From Chromobacterium violaceum ATCC 12472 (GTDB lineage Bacteria > Pseudomonadota > Gammaproteobacteria > Burkholderiales > Chromobacteriaceae), in NCBI RefSeq assembly GCF_000007705.1, contig NC_005085.1, forward strand, positions 3,419,752 through 3,483,751: a DNA stretch of 64,000 bases. Reading direction: 5' to 3'. Position 1 is the stretch's first letter, and each line of letters starts with the position of its first letter. This document shows, in pieces, positions 3,197 to 14,133 of this stretch. The position numbers and the translations under genes are program-made. The notes below the pieces were generated by a model. That model did no database searches, was not told the origin of the DNA, and saw nothing but the letters and a program-made list of their open reading frames with translations.

Positions 3197-4573
3197 CTAC
3201 TCCGTGCCACTTCCCTCCGGAACATTTCCACCGGCATCCGCAGCATCCTCATCACGGTAGCGCTGCAGTTTGTAGCGCAAAGTGCGCTCGCTGATGCCCA
3301 GTTTCTCCGCAGCCAGCTTCTTCACGCCGCCGACTGCCGCCAATGTTTCCAGGATATGGCGTTTCTCAAGGGTTTTCATGTCGGTTTCACCCGACACCGA
3401 ACTGTCCGATTCGGACTCCGCTCGGGTAAACTGCCCCACGCCAGCAATATCGCCCAGCATCAGATCGGCGGCAAGAATTTCCGCTCCGGCGGCAAGAATC
3501 ACCGCCCGCTGCACGACATTATCCAGTTCGCGGATGTTACCCTCCCAACTATAGGCCGTCAAATGACGTTCCGCATCCCTGGAAAACACCAGAGATGCCC
3601 GTCCAGCGGCCTCCGCATGTTTTTTAAGCAGGAATCGTGCCAAAGGTAGAATATCCTCCGGCCGCTCGGCGAGCGCCGGTATTCTCAGCGGGAAAACATT
3701 CAGACGGAAATACAGGTCTTCTCTGAAATTCCCAGCCTCCACCGCCGCCTGCAGATCGCGATTGGAGGTGGCCAGCACGCGAATGTCCAGCTTGATGGTG
3801 CGCGTGGCGCCTATCCGCTCCACCTCGCGCTCCTGCAGCACCCGCAACAGCTTGGCCTGCAAGGGCAGCGGCATCTCGGTCACTTCGTCCAGCAGGATGG
3901 TGCCGCCCTGAGCCTGCTCGAACTTGCCCGGCAAGGCCTGCGCCGCGCCGGTGAAGGCGCCGCGCTCATGGCCGAACAGCGTGGACTCCAGCAGATTGTC
4001 CGGGATAGCCGCGCAATTGACCGCGACGAACGGCCCGCTGCCGCGCTTGGAGTGGCGGTGGATGTAACGCGCCAGCACTTCCTTGCCGCTGCCGCTGGGG
4101 CCGGAAATCATCACGCTGGCGTCGCTCTGCGCCACCCGGCCCGCCAACGCGAACAACTGGCGCATCGCCGCGGATTCAGCCACCACATCGCCGCCGCCGT
4201 CTCCCGGCATCGCCAGCAGATGCTTGTCCACCTCGGCCAACAGGCTCTGCGGCTCGAAGGGCTTGAGCAGGTAATGCGCGGCCCCGGCGCGCAAGAGCTC
4301 GATCGCGCGCTCGATCACGCCATAGGCGGTCATCAGGATGAAGGGCACGCCGGGATAGCGCTTCTTCGCCTCCTCGAACAGGTCATAGCCGTCCATCGGC
4401 GCCATCTGGGCGTCGGAAATGATCAGCCCCACCGGCTCCTGGGCCAGCTTCTGCAGAGCGGAGCCGCCATCGGCGGCCTCCAGCGTCGGATAGCCCGCCA
4501 GGGAAAGCGTGTCGACGATGGCCTCGCGCAGATCCGCGTCGTCTTCGACCACCAGAATCGGAAGATACTTCAT
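3197..4573 (-). CDS. fleR: NtrC-family sigma54 response regulator, FleR-like
   Basis: 458 aa counted from the ATG at 4573; a TTG three codons upstream is also possible but sits too close to its AAGAAG. The receiver domain (about 1-120) has the acidic pocket (VEDD), the phospho-acceptor Asp in ISDAQMAPMDG, the Thr in LMTAYG and the Lys in LLKPF. The AAA+ domain has Walker A GPSGSGKE, the sigma54-contacting GAFTGA loop and Walker B TILLDE. The C-terminus has a Fis-type helix-turn-helix (KLAAEKLGISERTLRYKLQR). Its place directly before fliE matches FleR, which activates middle flagellar genes. No FleS sensor kinase gene is adjacent here, so the partner kinase is unknown from this window. Confidence 0.88.
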   Translation of the reverse strand: MKYLPILVVEDDADLREAIVDTLSLAGYPTLEAADGGSALQKLAQEPVGLIISDAQMAPMDGYDLFEEAKKRYPGVPFILMTAYGVIERAIELLRAGAAHYLLKPFEPQSLLAEVDKHLLAMPGDGGGDVVAESAAMRQLFALAGRVAQSDASVMISGPSGSGKEVLARYIHRHSKRGSGPFVAVNCAAIPDNLLESTLFGHERGAFTGAAQALPGKFEQAQGGTILLDEVTEMPLPLQAKLLRVLQEREVERIGATRTIKLDIRVLATSNRDLQAAVEAGNFREDLYFRLNVFPLRIPALAERPEDILPLARFLLKKHAEAAGRASLVFSRDAERHLTAYSWEGNIRELDNVVQRAVILAAGAEILAADLMLGDIAGVGQFTRAESESDSSVSGETDMKTLEKRHILETLAAVGGVKKLAAEKLGISERTLRYKLQRYRDEDAADAGGNVPEGSGTE

Positions 4574-4598
4574 GGAGTCCAATGCTTCTTAATTATGG

Positions 4599-8895: not shown

Positions 8896-9639
8896 TCAGG
8901 CCTGCCGCGCCAGCGAGGTGATGACCGGCAGCGACTCCTTGCCGTAGCACAGCCGGCTGGGACGCACGCGCATCCGAACCAGCGACAGCAGCAGGCTGAA
9001 GCCGGCCTGGTTGGGATCGATCACCGGCACATAGCAGCCCAGCGTCGCCTCCAGCAGCTGCTCCACCCGGCGCGCCACGCCGACGAAGCCGGTGCAGCCC
9101 AGCAGGATGGACTGGGCGCCGTCGCGGCGCACCGCCTCCAGCGCGCACTCGTACACCTTGGGCACCACCACATCCATATTGGACAGCTGGTCCACCGGGC
9201 AGTCTATCGCGCGGATCGAGCTGAACGAATCCTGCAGGCCGTAAGCCTGGACATGGCCGTGCTGCATCGCCAGCGTCGACTGCAGCACGGTGACGATGGA
9301 GAAGCGCTGGCTGAGCATCAGCGCGCTGAACGCCGCCGTCGGAAAACCGCCGACGATGGGGATGTTCACCGCCTCGCGCGCGGCCTCGACGCCGCACATG
9401 TCGAAATCGCTGAGCCAGATGCCGTCGAAGCCCTCGCGCTCCAGCTGCAGCGCCGTCTCCACCACCGCCAGGCCATTGGCCAGCCAGTCGATGCGGTCCT
9501 GGATGTGGCTGGTGCCGCGCGGCAGGTTGCGCGCCTCCACCTCGACGTCGGCCGGGATCACCGGGCGGATGGATTCCAGGATCGGCTGATTGAAGGTGTC
9601 GACGCCCACCGGCACCAGCACGCAGATGCGCAAGCTCAT
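8896..9639 (-). CDS. Asp/Glu/hydantoin racemase family protein
   Basis: 247 aa from the ATG at 9639, which overlaps the stop of the upstream DUF917 gene as ATGA. The protein has the two-Cys layout of the Asp/Glu/hydantoin racemase superfamily: Cys in SDFDMCGVEAAR (about residue 75) and Cys in ILLGCTGFVG (about 184), which would act as the two acid/base residues on opposite faces of the substrate. No signal peptide. Its tight coupling to a DUF917 gene suggests a role in hydantoin or thiohydantoin breakdown, or a related amide racemisation. The exact substrate is inference. A strong terminator follows. Confidence 0.85.
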   Translation of the reverse strand: MSLRICVLVPVGVDTFNQPILESIRPVIPADVEVEARNLPRGTSHIQDRIDWLANGLAVVETALQLEREGFDGIWLSDFDMCGVEAAREAVNIPIVGGFPTAAFSALMLSQRFSIVTVLQSTLAMQHGHVQAYGLQDSFSSIRAIDCPVDQLSNMDVVVPKVYECALEAVRRDGAQSILLGCTGFVGVARRVEQLLEATLGCYVPVIDPNQAGFSLLLSLVRMRVRPSRLCYGKESLPVITSLARQA

Positions 9640-10829
9640 CGCGCGCCCTCCCGGCCGGCGTCCACCGGCGCGTACGGTCCCAGGTAGCCTAGCTGCGCCA
9701 GTTCGTCGGCGAAGCTTTGCAGGATCAGCCCCTCGCTCAGCGGCGCGGCGGCCGGCAGCGCGATCACCGCCGCCTTGCGGCCGCGCACGGACGGGTCCAG
9801 ACCATGGTCGTTGCCCGACAAGTCGCCGTTGCTGAACACATGCTGGCCCTCGCCTTCGACGAAATAGCTGATGGCGTCCGGCGCGGTCGCCAGCGGATGG
9901 GACAGCGCGCTGTCCCAGGCCAGCAGCGATTCGTTCTGATACAGCACGGTGCAGCGGCGCTCGCCGTCCTCCAGCACCACCTTGCCCAGGTCGAAGCCGC
10001 CGGCGGTGCTCACCTCGGACGACGCCAGCGTCGCCGGGCCGAACAGCAGCTTGCCCTTGATGTCCAGCTCGCGGCGCAGGAAGTCCAGCATCGCTTCGGC
10101 GGTCTTCACCTTCCCGTCCTGCAGCGCGCGGCCCAGCTTCAGCGCCCGGCTCAGCGTGCCGCGCACCGGCAGCGCGCCGCCCAATTGCGCCGGCGACATC
10201 ATCCACATCGCCAGGCCGCCGAATTGGCCGAACTGCGGATTGGTCAGGATAGGCCGCAGCATCTGCTCCACCACGGTGGAAATGTCTTCCCGCCGCTGGC
10301 CGTCCGGCGGCGGCATGCGCACGCCCAGCTCCACGCACAAGCCGCTCTCGCCCGCCAGAAAGGCCGGCGTCGGCGGCACGCCGGCGGCGGCGTAGGTCAG
10401 CATCGGCAAGGACGGCACCGCGCGGCCGGCGCCGTCGGCGTCCACCACCGCCAGCCCCAGCTTGGCCGCCACCAGACTGGCCACCACGAAACCCAGCGCG
10501 CCGCTTTCCGGCGCCACGACATAAGCCAGCTTGCGCCCTTGCGATTCCAGCCGCTGCCGCGCCGCGAGGGCGGCCTCCACCGGTCCGTTCGGCCACTGCA
10601 CCTGGTTGATCGCGTCCGGCGCGCCCATATAGGCCACCATCACGCAATCGCCGTCGGTCGCCTCGTCCACATCCACCACCCGCACCTTGTCGGTCGGATA
10701 GTAATCGCCCTTGCGAAAGTTCGCCGCCAGATGGCGGGCGGAAATCATCGTCCCGCCGCCGCCGCTGCCGAAAAAGCACGCCCCTTGCAGCAAGGGTTCC
10801 AGATCGCTGGGAGAAAGTTCAAAAGCCAT
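9636..10829 (-). CDS. DUF917 / S-methylthiohydantoin desulfurase family protein
   Basis: 397 aa from the ATG at 10829 (MAFELSPSDLEPLLQGACFF); a start three codons upstream is also possible. The N-terminal glycine-rich segment FFGSGGGGTMISAR and VMVAYMGAPDA are typical of the DUF917 family, now linked with S-methyl-thiohydantoin desulfurase and found beside hydantoinase-like genes. The C-terminal half contains a beta-rich domain (GFDLGKVVLEDGERRCTVLY). It overlaps the end of the upstream sigma54 activator gene by 11 bases and the downstream racemase by 4, so all three are probably one transcript. The chemistry for this member is not established. Confidence 0.82.
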   Translation of the reverse strand: MAFELSPSDLEPLLQGACFFGSGGGGTMISARHLAANFRKGDYYPTDKVRVVDVDEATDGDCVMVAYMGAPDAINQVQWPNGPVEAALAARQRLESQGRKLAYVVAPESGALGFVVASLVAAKLGLAVVDADGAGRAVPSLPMLTYAAAGVPPTPAFLAGESGLCVELGVRMPPPDGQRREDISTVVEQMLRPILTNPQFGQFGGLAMWMMSPAQLGGALPVRGTLSRALKLGRALQDGKVKTAEAMLDFLRRELDIKGKLLFGPATLASSEVSTAGGFDLGKVVLEDGERRCTVLYQNESLLAWDSALSHPLATAPDAISYFVEGEGQHVFSNGDLSGNDHGLDPSVRGRKAAVIALPAAAPLSEGLILQSFADELAQLGYLGPYAPVDAGREGAR

Positions 10830-13146
10830 GGCTTGCACCTGTTGTTGCGTTGTGGTCGGCGCGCCCGCCCGGCAGGCTGCCGAGCCGGATGCGCGCCCAT
10901 TGCAGCACGGGATGGGCTGGCTCGGCGGAGCCGTCGCAGGCCCGCAAAACCGACTCCAGCAACGCCCGCGCCTGCTCTTCCCTTCCAGACTCGGCCAGCA
11001 GTTCCGCCAGCCGCGTCGCGGCCTCCACCCTGGGCGGCACCGCGCCCAGCGCTTCCGCCGTGGTCAATGCGCTGCGCAGGCCATGCTCGGCGCCGGACTC
11101 ATCGCCCAAGGCACGCAGCGCGTCCGCGCGCGCGATCAGCAATTCGCCGAGGTAGGCTCGCTCCTTGTGCGCCATCGCCAGTTCCAGCCCGCGGTCGGCC
11201 AAGGCCAGCGCCTCCTCCGCCCTCCCGGCGGCAAGCAGCAGTCGGCTGCGCTGCCAGGCATAGAAAGAATGGAACAGCTTGCCGCCATGGCGCAGCATCT
11301 GCCCTTGGTAGCCCTCCTCCATCGCGGCCTCCGCTTCCCGGAGCTGGCCGCGCCGCGCCAGATGGCAGCCCAGGAAGAACTGGGCGACGCCCTGGTAAAA
11401 GGCGAAACCATGTTGCCGCGACAGCCCCTCCATCTGCGTCGCGAGGCTGCCCAGCGCCTCGTCTTCGAACAGGCAGGCCAGCCAGACCGCCCCCTGCAGG
11501 GCGATGGCGCGGCTGAAAGGCTGGTCTTCGCTACCCTGCCGCGAGCGCAGCGCCTCCAGCGCCGTGCGCGCCTGGGCGAACTGGCCCAGCTGAAACGCCG
11601 CCAGCCCTTCGAAGGTCAGCACCAGGCCGCTCAGATCGAAACCCTGGGTTCCCATCCTCCGGCTGGGACCGCCGTCCAGCAGGCCGCCCCGCTCCAGGCA
11701 CGCCAGCACCTCGGCGTGATCGCCAAGCCAGAACAGGGTGTTGGCCATCACGAAATGGGCGTCGGCCAGCGCGCTGGCGTCCCCGGTGGCCTGACCGCGC
11801 TGCAGCATCTGCTGCGCCGCGCCGCGAGCCCGGTCCAGCTCCAGCGACATCAGCTGGCTGGTCCAGATGCCGAACAGGATGGACATGATCTCCGGCTCGC
11901 AATCCAGCTCCTTGCCCACGGCCAGCGCGGCTTCGTAGCAGGACAGCGCCTCCGCGCTGGACCAGCCGTGCCGCGCGCTGTGGCAAATGCCGAGCTGGCG
12001 CAGCAGGTGGAAGTGCTCCTCCCTCGCCTCGTCCTGCAATGAGGCGCTTTCCAGCAACGCCAGTCCGCGCGACAACTCGCGCTCGGCCGCGGCGAAATCG
12101 CCGCCGTCCATCAAGCGGCCGCCCTCGTCCAGCAAGCGGCGCAACTGCTGCCGCCTGTCCTGCCGCGCGCCCAGCCGGCGCTCCACCACCTTGCGGCCGA
12201 CGCCCAGCGCGCGCGCGGCCGCGGCCTTGTTGCCGCGGCTCAGATGCAATGCCCGGTTGAGCAACAGCGTCTCGGCCGCCGCCAGCTTGTCTTCTCCCGG
12301 CAAGGCCAGCAGCGCGTCGGCCAGTTCGGCGGCGTCCGCATGCCATGCGTGGGCCTGCGGTTCCAGGAACTCGTCCAGCGCCGCCGCGGTGATCAGCGGA
12401 CCGTCGGCCAGCACGCCCAGCCGGTCCACCAGGCTGCGCAGCTGGCGCACATTGCCCGGCCAGCGGCTGTGCTGCAGACGCGTCACGGCATCGGCGGCGA
12501 AGCGCAGCGGACGCGGCTGCATCGCGCAGAAATGCTCGATCAGCGCGGGGATGTCGTCGCGGCGCTGCTCCAGCCCCGGCAGGCTGAGCACGAATACCGA
12601 CAGCCGGTAATACAAGTCCTCCCGGAACCGTCCGTCGCGCACCGCGGCCTGCAGATCGCGATGCGTGGCGGCGACCACGCGTCCGGCGAAATGCTGGGAT
12701 TCGGCCGAGCCCAGCGGGCGAAAGCTGCGCGTCTCCAGCACCCGCAGCAATTTGGGCTGCAGCGTCAGCGGCAACTCGCCGATCTCGTCCAGAAACAGCG
12801 TGCCGCGCCCTACCCTGGCCAGCAGGCCGACCCGGCTGCCCTGCGCGCCGGTGAAGGCGCCGCGGGCGTGGCCGAACAGCTCGGCCTCCATCAGGTGCTC
12901 GGGAATCGCCGCGCAGTTGAGATCGATGAAAGGCTGCCCGGCCACCAGGCTGTGGCGGTGCAGCTCATGGGCAATGACTTCCTTGCCGGCGCCGGTCGGC
13001 CCCCAGATCAATACCGTCTTGTCGGTGGGCGCCACCCGCCGCACCAGTTGCAGCAGCCGCTGGAAAACCGCGGACTGGCCTATCGCGCGCTCGGCCGGAT
13101 CGGCCCGTGCATGCAACGGGGATACATCGTATGTGGGAATGTCCAT
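10819..13146 (-). CDS. Sigma54-dependent activator with C-terminal TPR region
   Basis: 775 aa from the ATG at 13146, with AAGG 5 bases upstream. The AAA+ domain starts almost at once (about residue 20): Walker A GPTGAGKE, the GAFTGA sigma54-binding loop, Walker B GTLFLDE and the arginine-finger segment FREDLYYRLSVF. A Fis-type helix-turn-helix (GNKAAAARALGVGRKVVERR) follows at about 315-335. Instead of ending there, about 430 residues of TPR-like helical repeats continue to the C-terminus. There is no N-terminal receiver, GAF or PAS domain, so sensing must lie in the C-terminal repeats or in partners. It heads the operon with the DUF917 and racemase genes and is divergent from a gene with a -24/-12 promoter, its likely target. 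Confidence 0.9.
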   Translation of the reverse strand: MDIPTYDVSPLHARADPAERAIGQSAVFQRLLQLVRRVAPTDKTVLIWGPTGAGKEVIAHELHRHSLVAGQPFIDLNCAAIPEHLMEAELFGHARGAFTGAQGSRVGLLARVGRGTLFLDEIGELPLTLQPKLLRVLETRSFRPLGSAESQHFAGRVVAATHRDLQAAVRDGRFREDLYYRLSVFVLSLPGLEQRRDDIPALIEHFCAMQPRPLRFAADAVTRLQHSRWPGNVRQLRSLVDRLGVLADGPLITAAALDEFLEPQAHAWHADAAELADALLALPGEDKLAAAETLLLNRALHLSRGNKAAAARALGVGRKVVERRLGARQDRRQQLRRLLDEGGRLMDGGDFAAAERELSRGLALLESASLQDEAREEHFHLLRQLGICHSARHGWSSAEALSCYEAALAVGKELDCEPEIMSILFGIWTSQLMSLELDRARGAAQQMLQRGQATGDASALADAHFVMANTLFWLGDHAEVLACLERGGLLDGGPSRRMGTQGFDLSGLVLTFEGLAAFQLGQFAQARTALEALRSRQGSEDQPFSRAIALQGAVWLACLFEDEALGSLATQMEGLSRQHGFAFYQGVAQFFLGCHLARRGQLREAEAAMEEGYQGQMLRHGGKLFHSFYAWQRSRLLLAAGRAEEALALADRGLELAMAHKERAYLGELLIARADALRALGDESGAEHGLRSALTTAEALGAVPPRVEAATRLAELLAESGREEQARALLESVLRACDGSAEPAHPVLQWARIRLGSLPGGRADHNATTGASHGF

Positions 13147-13163
13147 GGCCACCTTGCGCAAGC

Positions 13164-13184
13164 GGCGCGCCCGGCGGGCGCGCC
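13164..13184 (-). other. Leader hairpin close to the activator start codon
   Basis: Perfect 9-base arms GGCGCGCCC and GGGCGCGCC flank a 3-base loop, ending 17 bases before the ATG of the sigma54 activator gene. No T-run follows, so it is not a terminator. A structure this stable next to the ribosome-binding site could limit translation of the activator or stabilise the message. Role is inference. Confidence 0.5.
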
Positions 13185-13251
13185 CAACATGGCAAGGCAT
13201 TATGCCAACGACTTTTAAAATGACAAGGATGAAAAAAATGAATGCCGCGTC

Positions 13252-13293
13252 GATTCGTCCGGCATGAAACCGAAAAATGGACGAATCCGTCCA
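13252..13293. promoter_or_regulatory. Paired dyads, candidate enhancer sites for the sigma54 activator
   Basis: GATTCGTCC (13252-13260) and GGACGAATC (13279-13287) form a perfect 9-base inverted repeat with an 18-base spacer. The right arm is also part of a second dyad, TGGACG-AATC-CGTCCA (13278-13293). Both lie about 80-120 bases upstream of the predicted start site of the -24/-12 promoter, the usual distance for enhancer sites of NtrC-type activators. A looser dyad TGGCA-N8-TGCCA is at 13190-13207. Confidence 0.55.
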
Positions 13294-13346
13294 CTCGAGC
13301 GCGCGCTGCATCGGGACAAGCGCAATGAATACAATACTTTACAAAC

Positions 13347-13362
13347 TGGCACGCTTGCTGCT
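13347..13362 (+). promoter_or_regulatory. Sigma54 (-24/-12) promoter
   Basis: The sequence cTGGCACGcttgCTGCt matches the RpoN consensus TGGCACG-N4-TTGC with one mismatch (C for the first T of the -12 element). The invariant GG (13348-13349) and GC (13360-13361) are exactly 10 bases apart. Transcription would start near 13373, about 60 bases before the ATG at 13432. A sigma54 activator gene is divergent and close by, which strongly supports the call. Confidence 0.75.
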
Positions 13363-13431
13363 GTAGACAGCGGATGCCGCAAGACCGGCCTGGCCCGGAG
13401 GCGGCGAAAAACACACACCCGGAAATTGGGC

Positions 13432-14133
13432 ATGAACGCTCGCTACACCATCAATATTCTCAACAACAGCAGGCACAGCCAGGACTTCTTCCTGTTCCAG
13501 GAGCCGGCCCGCTACGTCGGCTCGGACAGCCGCGTCTACAGCAACAGCCTCTACCACCGGGCCTTGCCGCCGATATCGGAAACCGGCGCCATCCTGATCC
13601 TGGAGCTGCTGCCGTCCAGCTTCGCCGCCGCGCAGGCCCGCGCGGACCCGGCGCCGCGCCCCGGCCTGCCCTCTGGGCACGCCATGTCCTGCCAGCCGGT
13701 GCGGACCGCCCGCCCGGGCCACTCCGCGCCTAACGCGGTCACCATGAGCCTGGAGCCCGAACCTGAACTCAGCGCCGCCCGCCATCATCCCGGCGTGAGA
13801 GAGAACGCGTTTCGCATCAGCATTCCCGACTACGACGCCGGGCGGCGGCCCTGCAACGTCGGCCAGGCGGTGCGCACCGGCGACGGCCGCATGGTGCTGT
13901 CCAGCTTCATCGACGCCAGTCCGGGCCGCGACATCGACTGCGCGCCGCTTCCGCGCTTCTACGCCGGCGTCGGCCGCCGCCACGCCGGCACCGTCATCGA
14001 TTTCGCCAGCTGCCGCGAAGGCGCGGCCGTCTGCGACGCCGGCGAAGGCCATACCACTTTCAACCTGATCTACGACCGCCGCGGCGACTGGATAGTCGAG
14101 GTCGTCGAAGGCCGCCCCGCCTGGCAGACCTGA
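13432..14133 (+). CDS. Protein of unknown function under a sigma54 promoter
   Basis: 233 aa from the ATG at 13432; the open frame extends upstream but only this start lies downstream of the predicted sigma54 start site. The N-terminus YTINILNNSRHSQDFFLFQE, with the later SRVYSNSLYHRALPPI, resembles a group of small proteins that begin with a beta-rich NNS...FQ segment. I have a weak recollection of similarity to the rhizosphere-induced RhiA group, which I do not rely on. The middle (about 65-110) is Pro/Arg/Ala-rich and looks disordered. There is no signal peptide or membrane segment. It ends 2 bases before the stop of the convergent beta-lactamase gene. Function unknown; regulation by the neighbouring activator is inferred. 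Confidence 0.75.
   Translation: MNARYTINILNNSRHSQDFFLFQEPARYVGSDSRVYSNSLYHRALPPISETGAILILELLPSSFAAAQARADPAPRPGLPSGHAMSCQPVRTARPGHSAPNAVTMSLEPEPELSAARHHPGVRENAFRISIPDYDAGRRPCNVGQAVRTGDGRMVLSSFIDASPGRDIDCAPLPRFYAGVGRRHAGTVIDFASCREGAAVCDAGEGHTTFNLIYDRRGDWIVEVVEGRPAWQT

Follow-up and report, generated by a model that had tools for sequence, protein, structure and literature searches.

A sigma54 activator gene of Chromobacterium violaceum ATCC 12472 lies next to and diverges from a gene that had been described as encoding a protein with no known role. This raises the question of whether the two genes and the gap between them form a dedicated regulatory module and, if so, what such a module would switch on. 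We analyzed a 64,000-nucleotide stretch of the genome (hereinafter, the window) around this gap; the source genome is a single contig of 4,751,080 bases. The coordinates given in the original prediction for the two divergent genes and the gap are right, and the genes relevant here are as follows.

8896–9639, minus strand: gene of the Asp/Glu/hydantoin racemase family, with a start that overlaps the end of the desulfurase-like gene
9636–10829, minus strand: S-methyl-thiohydantoin-desulfurase-like (DUF917) gene, with a start that overlaps the 3' end of the activator gene by 11 bases
10819–13146, minus strand: sigma54 activator gene, recognized by Pfam domains and motifs
13147–13431: gap of 285 bases between the divergent genes
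13432–14133, plus strand: target gene, an open reading frame for a protein of 233 aa, assigned by profile comparison to the RhiA superfamily

The intergenic control region

The following elements were delineated in the gap.

13164–13184, no strand: GC-rich palindrome GGCGCGCCCG-C-CGGGCGCGCC, just 5' of the activator start codon, from the four-species alignment
13199–13226, minus strand: predicted sigma70-type promoter, TTGTCA-16-CATAAT with TG before the -10 hexamer, facing the activator gene, from a consensus scan
13252–13260, no strand: upstream half-site GATTCGTCC, a possible second activator site near -117, partly conserved and weaker than the dyad
13278–13293, no strand: dyad TGGACGAATCCGTCCA, candidate activator binding site (enhancer), from pattern search and conservation
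13314–13373, plus strand: promoter block (-59 to +1) of the gap alignment
13347–13362, plus strand: predicted -24/-12 (sigma54) promoter TGGCACG-CTTG-CTGCT, TGGCACGCTTGCTGCT, from consensus fit and conservation, with the predicted start at 13373

The gap had been proposed to contain a near-perfect -24/-12 promoter facing the 13432 gene, and this element is indeed present, with GG-N10-GC intact and with one mismatch to the sigma54 consensus TGGCACG-N4-TTGCW given in PMC3538637, where the G at -24 and the C at -12 are described as near-invariant. The start site at 13373 was placed by rule from the position of the element. With a tolerance of up to two mismatches, the window shows no excess of the pattern (nine matches observed vs 16.5 expected, two of these with one mismatch and none exact). 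Genome-wide, there are 44 matches with at most one mismatch, vs 19 for the reversed-pattern control, and arithmetic from this control puts the chance of a correctly oriented match in one 285-base gap at about 6e-4. Conservation of the element in related Chromobacterium, a check suggested along with the prediction, is complete: all 16 bases are identical in the four genomes that carry the locus. Across the surrounding block, the four species agree at 57 of 60 columns, vs 128 of 228 over the remainder of the gap alignment; the Fisher value of 8e-10 for this difference is descriptive because the limits of the block were picked after viewing the alignment and the columns are not independent. At the level of sequence, this cross-species conservation is strong evidence and settles the predicted promoter as beyond chance.

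It is very unlikely that the conserved block is instead a sigma70 promoter or a site for some other regulator and that the -24/-12 match is coincidental. The hexamer TTTACA at 13338–13343, immediately 5' of the -24/-12 element, might serve as a -35 hexamer, but a simple consensus scan of 13100–13460 detected no sigma70 promoter on the plus strand, and the -24/-12 fit, with the chance rate given above, is kept unchanged alongside a dyad of the activator type.

Upstream dyads at enhancer distance were also part of the prediction, and one of them stands. The dyad at 13278–13293, centered about 88 bases 5' of the predicted start, has 13 of 16 columns invariant in the four species, with both GGACG/CGTCC arms unchanged (its sequence is TGGACGAATTCGTCCA in two of the other carriers and CGGACGAAACCGTCCA in the remaining one), whereas the half-site at 13252–13260 is conserved only in part. 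The only exact match to the dyad pattern in the genome is the dyad itself. With up to two mismatches, 37 strand-counted matches are found genome-wide vs 9 for the control, many places being counted twice because the pattern is nearly palindromic. The one other dyad with a single mismatch, at 2567967, lies inside a coding frame and was ruled out as a second regulated site.

On the side of the activator gene, the -10 hexamer of the putative sigma70-type promoter is kept in all four aligned species and the -35 hexamer in three. The GC-rich palindrome is largely kept across these species: one C-G pair is replaced by A-T, the changes at its outer ends are unpaired, and its RNA fold z is only -1.46; an operator and a leader hairpin are both candidate readings of this element.

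The activator and the accessory block

The activator contains an AAA+ sigma54-interaction domain (residues 22–187; PF00158, E 1.6e-63) in which the Walker A motif (at 49), GAFTGA (at 96) and the Walker B motif (at 117) are intact. The AAA+ domain is followed by an AAA lid, a putative central Fis-type HTH (289–325; HTH_8, E 3.7e-4, with a score of 20.6 bits that falls slightly short of the Pfam cut-off of 22 bits) and C-terminal TPR matches between residues 461 and 757. Since the AAA+ domain starts at residue 22, there is no room for an N-terminal sensor domain. The AAA+ sigma54-interaction domain and, probably, the Fis-type HTH are shared with RtcR, NorR, PspF and other enhancer-binding proteins, from which the activator differs in its layout, i.e., no N-terminal sensor and a long TPR region after the HTH. 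An N-terminal regulatory domain is usual but not obligatory in enhancer-binding proteins, and PspF, too, is not known to have an N-terminal sensor domain. The system had been suggested to be signal-specific, which is an inference; the activator has a TPR region in place of a recognized sensor domain.

This architecture appears to be unusual. Among the 25 of 33 NCBIfam matches listed for the activator, none scores as high as its own cut-off, the nearest being NorR (278/476 bits). A comparison of the TPR region with 321 genomes of the class yielded, besides the window's own, just two weak matches (25% identity), and in a local tblastn search with the whole activator, both of these loci (about 1.5 kb on each side) aligned with the TPR part only, so that no second activator of this layout was found at that sensitivity. 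Among the open-licence papers listed as matches in literature searches, none is titled on a sigma54 activator with a TPR region and, for C. violaceum sigma54/RpoN, none is titled on this locus.

The window encodes another sigma54 activator (3197–4582, minus strand), whose N-terminus is receiver-like and whose gene is next to genes which, judging from their translations, resemble fliF and fliG; another -24/-12 match with one mismatch (3627–3642, minus strand) is located inside its reading frame.

The activator gene overlaps the desulfurase-like gene, after which comes the racemase gene. The desulfurase-like protein contains both Pfam S-Me-THD domains above the cut-offs and scores far under the NCBIfam equivalog cut-offs (64.3 vs 440 and 63.5 vs 450 bits). 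These two linked enzyme genes were not part of the original prediction, nor was the finding that, together with the activator and target genes, they form an accessory block. All four genes are present in 4 of the 19 Chromobacterium genomes (the source genome, G000, along with G006, G010 and G013), and in all four carriers nine genes around the module are in identical order. The activator (E<=1e-100) and close target orthologs are found in the same 4 of 61 genomes, all of them Chromobacterium, the sole other target relative in this set being a 41% one in G033, which lacks the activator. The two enzyme genes are equally restricted: of 41 genomes, these four alone have the desulfurase-like gene (E<=1e-60), and of the 19 in the genus, these four alone have the racemase gene (E<=1e-20).

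At the uvrB-transporter region, the target, desulfurase-like and racemase genes are absent from all five non-carriers examined (G003, G007, G009, G015 and G017, of the 15 in the genus). Activator matches of 45–47% in non-carriers were rejected as a flagellar-type regulator located further off. In G003, 33 bases separate the end of the transporter gene from that of the metallo-beta-lactamase-fold gene, at the place where the carriers have the four-gene block; in the other four non-carriers, the metallo-beta-lactamase-fold gene is absent from this region as well. In a three-gene tree of the nine loci, the five non-carriers group together with support of 100; the tree of uvrB only is unresolved (supports 46–76, except for the G013–G010 pair). 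By these comparisons, one gain or loss can explain the distribution of the four genes. Their co-occurrence is not independent proof of a functional link because a single inheritance event could produce the same pattern. Neither the target nor either of the linked enzymes has a match in PADLOC.

The divergent sigma54 module proposed in the original prediction is thus well supported: the genome has one Sigma54_DBD gene, the GAFTGA and Walker motifs are in place, the putative promoter and dyad are conserved, and the activator and target are found in the same genomes. An unlikely variant is that the promoter depends on sigma54 but a different activator drives the 13432 gene, with the neighboring one serving other genes or its own operon. 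The genome yields 12 Sigma54_activat matches, 8 of them at E 4.1e-49 or better, so other activators could act at the gap, and the dyad is only a candidate site for the adjacent one. However, an exact match to the dyad occurs nowhere else in the genome, and the activator and target genes are adjacent and co-occurring. The adjacent activator is the likely regulator; the module is real and conserved, and on sequence grounds the activator looks private to the target.

The RhiA-like target and the proposed switch

The target has no match among Pfam, NCBIfam or PHROG families, and PDB sequence searches gave nothing significant. The AlphaFold2 model, mostly strands, is poor (mean pLDDT 45.1, pTM 0.48) and was set aside. 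Comparison of profiles by hhalign, in contrast to these searches, links the target to RhiA over 201 columns (probability 97.3, E 2e-11; profiles of 13 and 6 sequences), and on this profile evidence the target is a member of the RhiA superfamily, distantly related to the rhizosphere protein RhiA itself. A plain tblastn search with RhiA at E<=1e-3 did not recover the locus of the target; it matched a gene adjoining target relatives in Pseudomonas sp. MF4836 and Paludibacterium. The description of the target as a protein with no known role is half right: it holds for the biochemical role and gives way to a superfamily assignment. A 2008 paper (PMC2275737) describes RhiA as cytoplasmic, strongly expressed and without an assigned function, and the rhi papers in the reference list of that paper date from 1984–1992.

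Compared with rhiABC of Rhizobium leguminosarum, the target is homologous to RhiA but is encoded by a single gene: the next gene is the convergent metallo-beta-lactamase-fold gene, and there is no rhiB- or rhiC-like gene downstream or elsewhere among its neighbors. The control also differs, being of the LuxR type for rhiABC and apparently of the sigma54 type here. Quorum regulation of the target through a LuxR-type protein, as for rhiABC, has only the slimmest probability. Such regulation would fit the RhiA-like nature of the target, the location of five Rhizobium relatives beside acyl-homoserine-lactone synthase genes, and the induction of rhiABC through RhiR and rhiI reported in PMC4149787. 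Against it, a search with a crude motif pattern found neither CTG-N10-CAG nor CTG-N11-CAG in the gap.

We consider it highly probable, then, that the gap is a divergent switch, probably with a single target, comprising its own activator, the dyad, sigma54 and the RhiA-superfamily protein. Under the proposed scheme, an ordinary sigma70 promoter would drive the activator gene, the Fis-type HTH of the activator would bind the conserved dyad, which is centered some 88 bp 5' of the predicted start, and the GAFTGA loop would open the sigma54-RNA polymerase waiting at the -24/-12 element, so that one RhiA-superfamily protein is switched on. Our guess is that the C-terminal TPR region gates the ATPase activity of the activator. 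As to the signal, which is also a guess, a small molecule made or removed by the linked enzymes seems most likely because the activator gene overlaps the desulfurase-like gene, followed by the racemase gene.

The interest of the locus lies in the RhiA link and in the unusual layout of the activator. A free-living, easily cultured bacterium in which a single RhiA-like gene has a single promoter and, it appears, an activator of its own would offer a simpler system for studying RhiA function, and the two adjoining enzyme genes may hint at the signal.

Relatives of the target and their regulation

The target is rare: at 1e-5, matches were obtained in 4 of 398 genomes of the phylum (its own included), two of them partial. 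Relatives are present in Paludibacterium, two Pseudomonas, a Desmonostoc MAG and Venteria, and on 100 plasmid records (44 from Rhizobium, 29 from Serratia, 21 from Phaeobacter, 3 from Agrobacterium and three others); phage records contain no match at E<=0.01. The relatives are frequently arranged as two tandem genes with a small third gene after them; in A. vitis, this third gene is annotated as rhiC.

In the alphaproteobacteria, the upstream regions of 16 relatives (15 from plasmids, and strain 248) were tested. A -24/-12 element with a NifA-type TGT-N10-ACA site 73–84 bases upstream was detected in five of these, whereas shuffled upstream regions contained the pair in at most 0.5% and the element alone in 7–20%. 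The test leans towards pRL10 because the score limit was set at the score of the pRL10 site, seen beforehand; the sites on the plasmids of L045, L048 and L060 clear this limit by a margin. The five represent two lineages, one consisting of pRL10 and strain 248 and the other of three R. leguminosarum/ruizarguesonis plasmids. In pRL10 and strain 248, two tandem RhiA-like genes with a NifA-type sigma54 promoter (L017, 9001–10509; L055, 9933–11441) are located between fixABCX-nifA and fixNOQP. RHLv8130-1, which is 5- to 30-fold up in pea bacteroids in a transcriptome described in PMC6421345, would by its numbering between fixABCX-nifA and fixNOQP be the two tandem genes. Some root-nodule relatives of the target thus appear, from their upstream sequences, to be under sigma54 control, and their NifA-type promoters would add candidates to the nodule sigma54 regulon.

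The NifA/sigma54 modules of rhizobia resemble the Chromobacterium locus in having an activator site upstream of a -24/-12 element. They differ in that the activator of the latter is not NifA, the gap contains no TGT-N10-ACA site, and the activator is encoded right beside its putative target, in divergent orientation.

The remaining 11 of the 16 alphaproteobacterial relatives have no element-plus-site pair, and five of these 11, all from Rhizobium, adjoin an acyl-homoserine-lactone synthase gene. Among the four other relatives outside Chromobacterium, that of Pseudomonas sp. MF4836 has a fair -24/-12 element (shuffle fraction 0.01) and the other three have none; the region upstream of rhiA contains no such element either.

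A broader conjecture, to which we give limited credence, is that bacteria produce RhiA-superfamily proteins when these are needed and that the regulators in charge were recruited independently: NifA with sigma54 in the nodule, a quorum-sensing system in the rhizosphere and, in Chromobacterium, a TPR-type sigma54 activator linked to two genes for thiohydantoin/hydantoin-type enzymes. In this case, the Chromobacterium cassette might by itself both sense a small molecule from a host or neighbor and respond to it and, if so, would provide a way into the function of RhiA.

Large regulators or ATPases are encoded near several relatives (a kinase-AAA protein in Pseudomonas, a cyclase-AAA protein in A. 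fabrum and a winged-helix TPR protein in Phaeobacter); the matches of the activator to these three (best BLASTP E 0.054, 0.006 and 0.31, respectively) were not accepted as homology. In Pseudomonas sp. MF4836 (L013, 9651–14511), an FHA-domain gene and a protein-kinase/AAA gene come after the genes for the target relative and a RhiA relative. The match in Venteria (L016, 36–690) extends over two frames near a contig end, reflecting a frameshift or a sequencing error, and was left out of the alignments because it changes frame. Finally, the tandem RhiA-like genes that adjoin a gene for acyl-homoserine-lactone synthase (L046, L047, L056, L057 and L058) are candidate targets of the raiIR quorum system, given that PMC4149787 describes the genes under raiIR control as not yet identified.
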